A stretch of DNA of 64,000 nucleotides, from contig CANLII010000002.1 in NCBI GenBank assembly GCA_947491315.1, positions 186,001-250,000 of the forward strand. Direction: 5' to 3'. The DNA is from Ignavibacteria bacterium. GTDB lineage: Bacteria > Bacteroidota > Ignavibacteria > Kapaibacteriales > UBA961. The stretch's first letter is position 1, and each line of letters begins with the position of its first letter. The notes below the pieces were generated by a model. The model made no database searches. It had not been told where the DNA came from and saw only the letters and a list, made by a program, of their open reading frames with translations. Below are positions 20,412-43,594 of the stretch, in pieces. A program made the position numbers and the translations under genes.

Positions 20412-20414
20412 TAC

Positions 20415-20495
20415 TACCGTTGGAGGTGCCGATTCTTCGGCTGAGATCATACTCTTCGAACCTGATCCGGGTTATACCGGCGTAGGAAAACGATA
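20415..20495 (+). promoter_or_regulatory. TPP riboswitch (THI element)
   Basis: The sequence contains the hallmark conserved blocks of the TPP aptamer in order: GGAGGTGCC, then GGCTGAGATCATAC, then GAACCTGATCCGGGTTATACCGGCGTAGGAA (given in parts: GAACCTGATCCGGGTT and ATACCGGCGTAGGAA). The P1 ends TACCGTT and AACGATA can pair. It binds thiamin pyrophosphate and lowers expression of the downstream gene. A 9-bp hairpin at 20526-20550 (CGGAATAGT / ACTATTCCG) just before the start codon may be the expression platform; it has no T tract, so control is likelier at translation. Confidence 0.93.
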
Positions 20496-20525
20496 CAAGC
20501 TCATATCTTGTGTTCTCCCCTCTTG

Positions 20526-41901: not shown

Positions 41902-41930
41902 AAGCCCGCTATGAGCGGGCTTCTTTTATT
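41902..41930. terminator. Rho-independent terminator between convergent genes
   Basis: A perfect 9-bp stem AAGCCCGCT / AGCGGGCTT with loop ATG, then a T-rich stretch on the plus strand, lies after the Lon-family gene. The stop codon of the minus-strand amidohydrolase is inside the T tract. The minus side has AAATAAAAG ahead of the stem and a weaker T run beyond it, so it is mainly a plus-strand terminator. Confidence 0.88.
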
Positions 41931-43224
41931 TCATCTGTTGATATCGAGTTCTATATTTTTTTGCAAGATCCGTATGTCGATTTTCTAGGTCCACTTTCTT
42001 CCCTTGCACAAAAGCATGTTCCAATTTATTTGTCATGGCATCAAGCGCATTGCCGGTTGAGACGAATAGTGTTGCATCTTTTCCAACTTCCAATGAACCA
42101 ACTCTATCTGAGATACCCAACATCGATGCAGGATTGATTGTTAGACCTCGAAGTGCGGCTTCTTCGCTCAATCCGAATGCAACTGCAGTACCGGCATTGA
42201 ACGGCAGATTACGCTGTTGCCAAAATGATGTTTCAGAGAATGCCCAATTGATACCTGCACTTTCCAAAATGGAAGGTAATGCAAAGGGTTCATCATATGC
42301 TGCTTCATCACTGCGTGGCAAAGAATGAGTGCGTGGAATGATGACCGGCACTCTTGCCAATTGTAATTCTTCCAAGCACAAATGTGCTTCCGATGCACCG
42401 GCTATAACGGCATTAAGTTTATGTTCTGAAATGAGTTCAAGGGCTGCTAGAATTTGTTCTTTCTTGCTTGCTGAGAACATCACTTTCATTTGCTTTTCAA
42501 AGACGGGACGCATTGCTTCCATTCGGATGTCTTGAGCATTCTCTGCCAATCCATTTCTTGCAGCAAGTGAATACATCTTTGCTTTATTAAAATAGTCTTT
42601 CAATTCACGAAGATTATTCTCAGCTTCTTTCAATTGCTCATCCGCGCTTTTGGAAATCCATGGTGCATTGAATACTCCCATATATGGAATATTCACTATC
42701 AATGCGGCTGTCTGATTCAAAGAAATATCTTCTTTTGTCCAACCATCCAATTGCATGATCGAACTCTTACCTGAAATGCTTCCGCCTTCTGGAACAACAT
42801 GAGCAATGAGAACTCCATTATGTCTTACTGTTGGTATGATTTCACTATCGGGATTATATGCAACCGCTGATTTTGCATTCGGATTATATGCACCGATTTC
42901 CACATTGTCACGAGTTGCTCGCACGGATACGATTTCAACCAAACCCAATGTTGTTTCCGCCGCGATGAAACCGGGATAGATTGACTTTCCCGTACAATCG
43001 ATTACTTCCGCATTTGTCGGGATATCTATGTTTTTTCCAATGGCGGTAATTTTCCCTTTGTCAAAGATTATAGTGGCACCATCAAGTGTTCCTTGAGCGA
43101 TGGTATGAATCTTTGCATTTTTCAATACAATCGTCTGCTTTTGCGGAGCACCAGGAATTTTGTCATGAGCTTGCATGATTGTGATTCCTGCAAAAAGTGC
43201 GATGACTGATCTCATGTATCTCAT
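41926..43224 (-). CDS. Amidohydrolase-fold protein lacking the HxH metal motif
   Basis: A 432-residue secreted protein with signal peptide (RSVIALFAGITIMQA). It has the composite start of the amidohydrolase superfamily (IVLKNAKIHTIAQGTLDGATI, then GKSIYPGF) and the C-terminal metal-independent end (ISDRVGSLEVGKDATLFV). Where active members carry DxHxH after PGF, this one has IAAETTLGLVE, so the metal-binding histidines are missing, and I see no replacement set. It may be catalytically inactive or may use another site; paralogues with lost motifs are common in Bacteroidetes. Its promoter at 43377-43407 and structured leader are clear. Confidence 0.83.
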   Translation of the reverse strand: MRYMRSVIALFAGITIMQAHDKIPGAPQKQTIVLKNAKIHTIAQGTLDGATIIFDKGKITAIGKNIDIPTNAEVIDCTGKSIYPGFIAAETTLGLVEIVSVRATRDNVEIGAYNPNAKSAVAYNPDSEIIPTVRHNGVLIAHVVPEGGSISGKSSIMQLDGWTKEDISLNQTAALIVNIPYMGVFNAPWISKSADEQLKEAENNLRELKDYFNKAKMYSLAARNGLAENAQDIRMEAMRPVFEKQMKVMFSASKKEQILAALELISEHKLNAVIAGASEAHLCLEELQLARVPVIIPRTHSLPRSDEAAYDEPFALPSILESAGINWAFSETSFWQQRNLPFNAGTAVAFGLSEEAALRGLTINPASMLGISDRVGSLEVGKDATLFVSTGNALDAMTNKLEHAFVQGKKVDLENRHTDLAKKYRTRYQQMK

Positions 43225-43277
43225 TGAAAACCTATATGCGTTTTTGAAAATAAAAGAATGGAAAGGGTCTTTACAGC

Positions 43278-43316
43278 GAGATGCCCTTTGACGTCACCAC
43301 TCGTCAAAGGGCACTC
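43278..43316 (-). promoter_or_regulatory. Strong hairpin in the leader of the amidohydrolase gene
   Basis: GCCCTTTGACG (43283-43293) pairs perfectly with CGTCAAAGGGC (43302-43312). The helix extends by a T-A pair and by GAG/CTC past a one-base bulge. The loop has 8 bases. It lies about 55 bases before the start codon. There is no T run, so it is not a normal terminator. Confidence 0.7.
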
Positions 43317-43347
43317 CCCTTCCCACCTTTTCACCACCACAACAAAT

Positions 43348-43371
43348 GAGAATCTCAACGAGTGAGTTCTC
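43348..43371 (-). promoter_or_regulatory. 5'-terminal stem-loop of the amidohydrolase transcript
   Basis: GAGAA pairs with TTCTC and CTCA with TGAG, with one bulged T and a 5-base loop. The structure lies at the predicted 5' end of the transcript, directly after the -7 element. Such end hairpins often protect mRNA from decay; that role is inference. Confidence 0.6.
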
Positions 43372-43376
43372 GGGGG

Positions 43377-43407
43377 CAAATATAACATGCGACCCTATTC
43401 GATGCAA
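43377..43407 (-). promoter_or_regulatory. Bacteroidetes-type promoter for the amidohydrolase gene
   Basis: On the minus strand TTG (43407-43405), 20 bases, and TATATTTG (43384-43377) match TTG-N20-TAnnTTTG exactly. The start site would be near 43370, giving a leader of about 145 bases. Confidence 0.78.
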
Positions 43408-43519: not shown

Positions 43520-43594
43520 CGGGGTGTAGCGCAGTCCGGTTAGCGCACCTGCTTTGGGAGCAGGGGGTCGTGAGTTCGAATCCCACCACCCCGA
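43520..43594 (+). tRNA. tRNA-Pro (anticodon TGG)
   Basis: A 75-base cloverleaf: acceptor stem CGGGGTG / CACCCCG with discriminator A, anticodon stem CCTGC / GCAGG with loop TTTGGGA (anticodon TGG) and a T arm with TTCGAAT. It decodes CCN proline codons. The CCA end is not encoded. A terminator follows at 43604. Confidence 0.95.

Follow-up and report, generated by a model that had tools for sequence, protein, structure and literature searches.

Rfp18 of Flavobacterium psychrophilum is a trans-acting, base-pairing small RNA (sRNA) for which one stem-loop has been proposed to pair with several targets (PMC9723704), and the sRNAs OmrA and OmrB are reported to repress the anti-sigma gene flgM (PMC7549644). 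For Kapabacteria, a literature search found no sRNA paper. Here we describe an RNA encoded on the minus strand of a 64,000-nt stretch of DNA from an Ignavibacteria bacterium (the window), where it lies between a promoter and a gene for an amidohydrolase-like protein. It represents a genuine, new and previously unlisted family of structured RNA, and we consider it probable that it is a single-copy sRNA which spans roughly 100 nt on the minus strand (43371 to about 43273), and which would most likely base-pair in trans and, in the window's genus, also serve as 5' UTR for the amidohydrolase gene.

The promoter is of the Bacteroidota type and consists of TTG, N20 and TATATTTG (43377 to 43407, minus strand, as are all elements of the RNA; TTG at 43407-43405, TATATTTG at 43384-43377). 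Measured against the consensus of TTTG at -33 and TANNTTTG at -7 (PMC6847099), it scores 9/9, a value reached in 0 of 500 shuffles. The leader of the amidohydrolase gene is predicted to start near 43371 and to be about 147 nt long. It begins with a 5'-terminal hairpin predicted by folding (GAGAACTCACTCGTTGAGATTCTC, 43348 to 43371), followed by a G-rich stretch (GTTGTGGTGGTGAAAAGGTGGGAAGGGGAG, 43314 to 43343) with the segment GUUGUGGUGGUGAAAAGGUGGGAAGGGGAG conserved in alignments A1, A2 and A4, and by the main hairpin P2 (43278 to 43316), in which the arms TGCCCTTTGACG (43313-43302) and CGTCAAAGGGCA (43293-43282) form 12 perfect pairs around a loop of 8 nt; pairing of GAG (43316-43314) with CTC (43280-43278) extends P2 to 15 bp, leaving T43281 bulged. 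The stem ends 57 nt upstream of the amidohydrolase ATG at 43224. The predicted folding energy of the leader is -56.9 kcal/mol, compared with -36.5 +/- 3.7 kcal/mol for dinucleotide shuffles (z = -5.5; 0 of 200 equally stable). The promoter, the 5' hairpin, the G-rich stretch and the 12-bp stem (15 bp with a bulge), all of which had been pointed out in an earlier note on this DNA, were thus confirmed.

The downstream gene (41926 to 43224, minus strand) encodes a secreted amidohydrolase-like protein of 432 aa (Pfam Amidohydro_1, E=6.6e-11). At the place where metal-binding members of the family have a motif of the PGF.D.H.H type, this protein has the sequence PGFIAAETT, and its catalytic activity may be altered or lost. 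The divergent neighbour of the RNA is a tRNA gene (43520 to 43594, plus strand; Rfam tRNA, 66 bits) with the anticodon TGG, assigned to tRNA-Pro by eye. The same tRNA neighbour was seen within the genus and for several genomes of f2, an old synteny.

When the leader was compared with the 4227 families of Rfam 15, none reached its gathering score, and the minus strand was without match even at E<10. For the copies of 11 relatives, no family was found on the RNA either, and lax thresholds gave chance matches only. The earlier note was right in describing a structured RNA without known family, preceded by a strong promoter of its own. Elsewhere in the window, a TPP riboswitch was detected at 20412-20505 (plus strand; Rfam, 74.4 bits). 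Two other identities were considered and rejected: a two-tier G-quadruplex built from four GG runs, as families f2 and f5 have not preserved these, and a short coding ORF, which is disfavoured by insertions of A's in odd number (AAA or AAAA) and by the two-sided changes in the stem.

Conservation of the structure is evident from covariation. In an alignment of 42 distinct sequences fitted to a covariance model, 12 of the 16 pairs of P2 change on both sides, and 98.1% of the cells are paired; none of 500 shuffles came near these values, and sliding the pairing partners abolished the signal. The same stem, with seven two-sided pairs, was recovered in the MAFFT alignments A1 and A2. A covariance analysis across homologous genes had been suggested earlier as a check on the leader, and its outcome is clearly in favour of a conserved RNA structure. 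At the place of the 5' hairpin, several relatives have unrelated sequences which still form hairpins; thus its position is kept, not its sequence. The remaining helices are less certain. P1 (CCUUUC/GAAAGG), predicted in f4, f8, f9 and f10 but not retained by g1 or by much of f2, is tentatively regarded as part of the RNA. An outer helix GUGAGA/UCUCAC has 87% of its cells paired, yet shuffles give similar values, leaving it weakly supported, and UCUC has two possible partners, GGUGAGA and GGGGAG. An alternative closing stem between CUCCUUU and a downstream AAAGGGG is visible in several families and absent in the window. Neither this stem nor the outer helix is included in the structure proposed here.

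The closest named relatives of the window's genome are Candidatus Kapaibacterium MAGs, and the regions upstream of amidohydrolase orthologues contain a strongly conserved block, TTTCGTTGTGGTGGTGAAAAGGTGAGAAGGGGAGTGCCCCTTGACG-AGTGGTGA-CGTCAAGGGGCATCTCAC. Of the 123 genomes examined from the order (the Candidatus Kapaibacterium group), 56 gave a match to a covariance model built in this analysis (R1), nearly always as a single copy; rare second matches were weak antisense hits of the same palindrome, pieces at contig ends, and one weak extra match in G012. A class-wide search detected the RNA also in a second order (four of its five genomes), where CUCCUUUCGUUGUGGUGGUGAAA of the G-rich segment is identical. 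Among 296 genomes drawn from the phylum, a draw without the matching genomes of the second order, there was no match beyond the window's order. Family f3 and genome G049 have neither the RNA nor an orthologue of the amidohydrolase. Some copies are modified. In those of the second order (L194-L197), GAAAGGUGAGAAGGGGAGUG is replaced by GAAACAAAAGAGGUAGGGGAAUG or a similar sequence, and a TTG/TAnnTTTG promoter is not recognisable within the last 90 nt. Those of f2g5 (L150-L156, L022, L027) are shortened RNAs which lack the GUUGUGGUGGU segment, in some cases starting right after the promoter, and which keep the hairpin with its GUGGUGA loop and a long U-run.

The RNA segment occurs once in the window's genome; for the detection of repeats, the earlier note had recommended a genome-wide search with the stem region. 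Its suggestion of a repeat-derived element is refuted, as each genome has one copy and the sequence is the same whether the position is orthologous or moved. A functionless palindrome of repeat or mobile origin might account for the different loci occupied in different families; given the copy number, the compensatory changes and the conserved loop word, its probability is close to nil. Single-copy occurrence, conservation at the level of the class and the repeated loop word would also suit a housekeeping RNA that binds protein, either in the manner of 6S RNA or as a sponge that titrates an RNA-binding protein, with the GUGGUG and AGGGGAG repeats as protein sites. The genome gave no match to RF00013 (6S RNA) in a search that was positive in five control genomes, which leaves room for such a role; a search with RF01685 (6S RNA) was also without match, though its control stayed silent as well. 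The long closing stem and central bubble of the 6S type are absent, however, and the RNA is missing from family f3 and some genomes. We regard a protein-binding function of this kind as distinctly improbable.

Whether the RNA is a leader or free-standing can be judged from its genomic positions, the names of neighbouring genes having been read from their translations without a family search. It precedes the amidohydrolase gene in f1 (except g3), f2, f4g7, f6 and f7. In f9 and f10, it is located after prfA and before a gene for an S9-type hydrolase, in f8g11 before obgE, in f5 after a gene resembling UDP-glucose dehydrogenase, and in the second order after uvrB or an ATPase gene, where the next main ORF in G404 and G418 is 724-867 nt away. 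In three genomes of two families (loci L144, L138 and L145), the next gene is convergent: the RNA follows lspA in G025 and era in G020 and adjoins atpC in convergent orientation in G044, and it cannot be a leader there. The position of the RNA is thus independent of neighbouring genes across families. The S9-type hydrolase gene which the RNA precedes in f9, f10 and f8g25 is the gene that follows the amidohydrolase gene in f2; some moved positions may therefore represent loss of the amidohydrolase gene rather than a jump, the convergent cases excepted.

The promoter-like sequence moves together with the RNA and is present in most families. A 9/9 promoter with N20 spacing (N19 in one f9 genome) was found in f1, f5 and f6, in two genomes of f9 and in one of f2, moved copies included; f4g7, f4g16 and f10 have 8/9 promoters, and the f8 copies show no clear promoter upstream. 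The distance from promoter to motif is 20-52 nt. At the other end, at least four T follow the hairpin in 38 of 61 loci, compared with 5.5% of control windows. This U-run is present in all copies of f2g5, f5, f8, f9, f10 and the second order, has fewer than four T in the window and most f1 genomes, and is missing in most of f2. At its position in the window (43273 to 43277) the letters are GCUGU, which do not make a good terminator, and a separate short transcript is least certain in the window's own genus. The f2g5 genomes have a -7-like element (TAGNTTTG or TAGATTCG) in the gap from the RNA to the amidohydrolase gene, and the two look like separate units. In the window's genus, by contrast, the gap of 48 nt has no conspicuous second promoter, and neither do the gaps of f1 and f6; the RNA is therefore most likely co-transcribed with the amidohydrolase gene as its 5' UTR in this genus. 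Taken together, some families appear to have a free-standing RNA, and others, including the window's genus, one that is joined to an mRNA.

These observations also bear on a function purely in cis, in which the RNA would control the amidohydrolase gene (and in some families the S9-hydrolase gene) as a riboswitch or as an attenuator that responds to a protein, with the hairpin as terminator and the G-rich segment as sensor or anti-terminator. Such a function would agree with the proximity of RNA and amidohydrolase gene in five families, the link of both hydrolase genes through f2, the hairpin with its U-run, the gaps of f1 and f6, and the joint absence of RNA and orthologue from f3 and G049, which a cis role would predict. 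It is contradicted by the convergent genes, by families in which obgE or nothing near follows, by the separate -7-like element of the f2g5 gene, and by the single copy per genome, whereas riboswitches often recur. We thus judge it unlikely: a riboswitch does not fit the RNA family as a whole, with some room for one in the window's genus. The riboswitch, thermometer or mRNA stabiliser suggested by the earlier note is not supported as the main function, because the RNA is retained at sites distant from the amidohydrolase gene, among them sites before convergent genes and, in the second order, a gap of several hundred bases; for the window's genus, a leader transcript still seems most likely.

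The word GUGGUG, which is exposed twice, is our candidate for the pairing region of an sRNA that is likely to act in trans. The first copy, in the 5' segment (GUGGUGGUG, 43332 to 43340), is proposed as a seed on the basis of its conservation and of a complement in the start region of a putative anti-sigma gene; the second is the GUGGUGA apical loop of P2 (43294 to 43300), which most families retain above covarying closing pairs and which is replaced in f6 and f7. The loop copy is lacking in f6, the 5' copy in f5 and several f2 genera, and f7 has only UGGUGA. The two copies thus look like a redundant seed. There are 16 exact sites for TCACCACCAC in the genome, one of which, besides the RNA gene itself, is intergenic (L180, G000:C1:190094): it lies directly 3' of the stop codon of an ECF sigma factor gene, confirmed by Pfam, and before an ORF of 204 aa without Pfam match, from its place a putative anti-sigma factor gene. 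At the start of this gene, UCACCACCAC, the complement of GUGGUG, is conserved in four congeners while the flanks have diverged, and the whole TCACCACCAC 10-mer is kept at the junction of the two genes in the congeners G000, G005, G002 and G006. In G001 and G004, TCACCAC is found within codons 4-6 of the putative anti-sigma gene; G009 and G022 lack the site, and it was not seen at the same gene in other genera. The predicted duplex of seed and anti-sigma site has -24.2 kcal/mol (1 of 2000 shuffles equally good), and for G000, G005, G002 and G006 0-5 of 2000 shuffles were equally good, the RNA sequence being assumed for G002 and G005, whose amidohydrolase gene runs off the contig end. For G001 and G004 the duplexes are weak, as 94 and 133 of 2000 shuffles were equally good. 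In G020, a perfect complement of 15 nt is located 19 nt upstream of the start of a response-regulator gene. These target sites are leads picked post hoc, the anti-sigma site being one chosen from 16. G051 has four near-identical genes (MDIALSQITKLEGIATQ...; L265-L268), each after a stretch of TCACCACCAC and TTGAAA(A)GGATG; as these form one paralogous gene family, the four sites before ATG were rejected as separate targets and count as one at most.

The sRNA would thus be transcribed from its own sigma-A-type promoter and fold into three elements: a protective hairpin at the 5' end, a weak stem-loop in the 5' part, and a strong hairpin at the 3' end, the last of these together with the U-run acting as terminator in many lineages. 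Both GUGGUG copies would pair with UCACCAC(CAC) at the translation starts of target mRNAs, in the window's genus for example that of the putative anti-sigma factor, and pairing would presumably block translation, as assumed from the position of the sites. In the window's genus, with its weak or absent U-run and no other promoter evident for the amidohydrolase gene, read-through would also turn the RNA into that gene's 5' UTR. A bolder version appears rather doubtful to us; here the RNA would be a class-wide global regulator of a barely cultivated lineage, whose phylum lacks Shine-Dalgarno starts, and would use the same seed in two loops to bind UCACCAC where translation of sigma-factor antagonists and other regulators begins. 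A single-copy RNA of two orders with a testable seed and target provides a handle on RNA regulation in a lineage in which genetics are scarce or absent, and it suggests a route by which an sRNA gene fuses to, and separates from, an adjacent mRNA in evolution.

In comparison with known systems, the RNA resembles Rfp18 (PMC9723704) in its small size, conservation and strong hairpins, both belonging to a phylum whose promoters have TAnnTTTG. No match between it and a described family was found, its repeated GUGGUG and its class-wide range are particular, and its transcription is predicted. With 6S RNA (RF00013, RF01685) it shares small size and single-copy occurrence; in contrast to 6S RNA, it has no model match in the genome and no long interrupted double helix. 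Like riboswitch leaders, such as the TPP riboswitch at 20412-20505, it would in the window's genus be a structured 5' UTR, placed between a promoter and a gene, but unlike these it is kept even without a downstream gene on the same strand. As with OmrA/OmrB and flgM (PMC7549644), synthesis of an anti-sigma factor would be inhibited by an sRNA; those RNAs are enterobacterial and unrelated, whereas the target proposed here is predicted from one conserved site.
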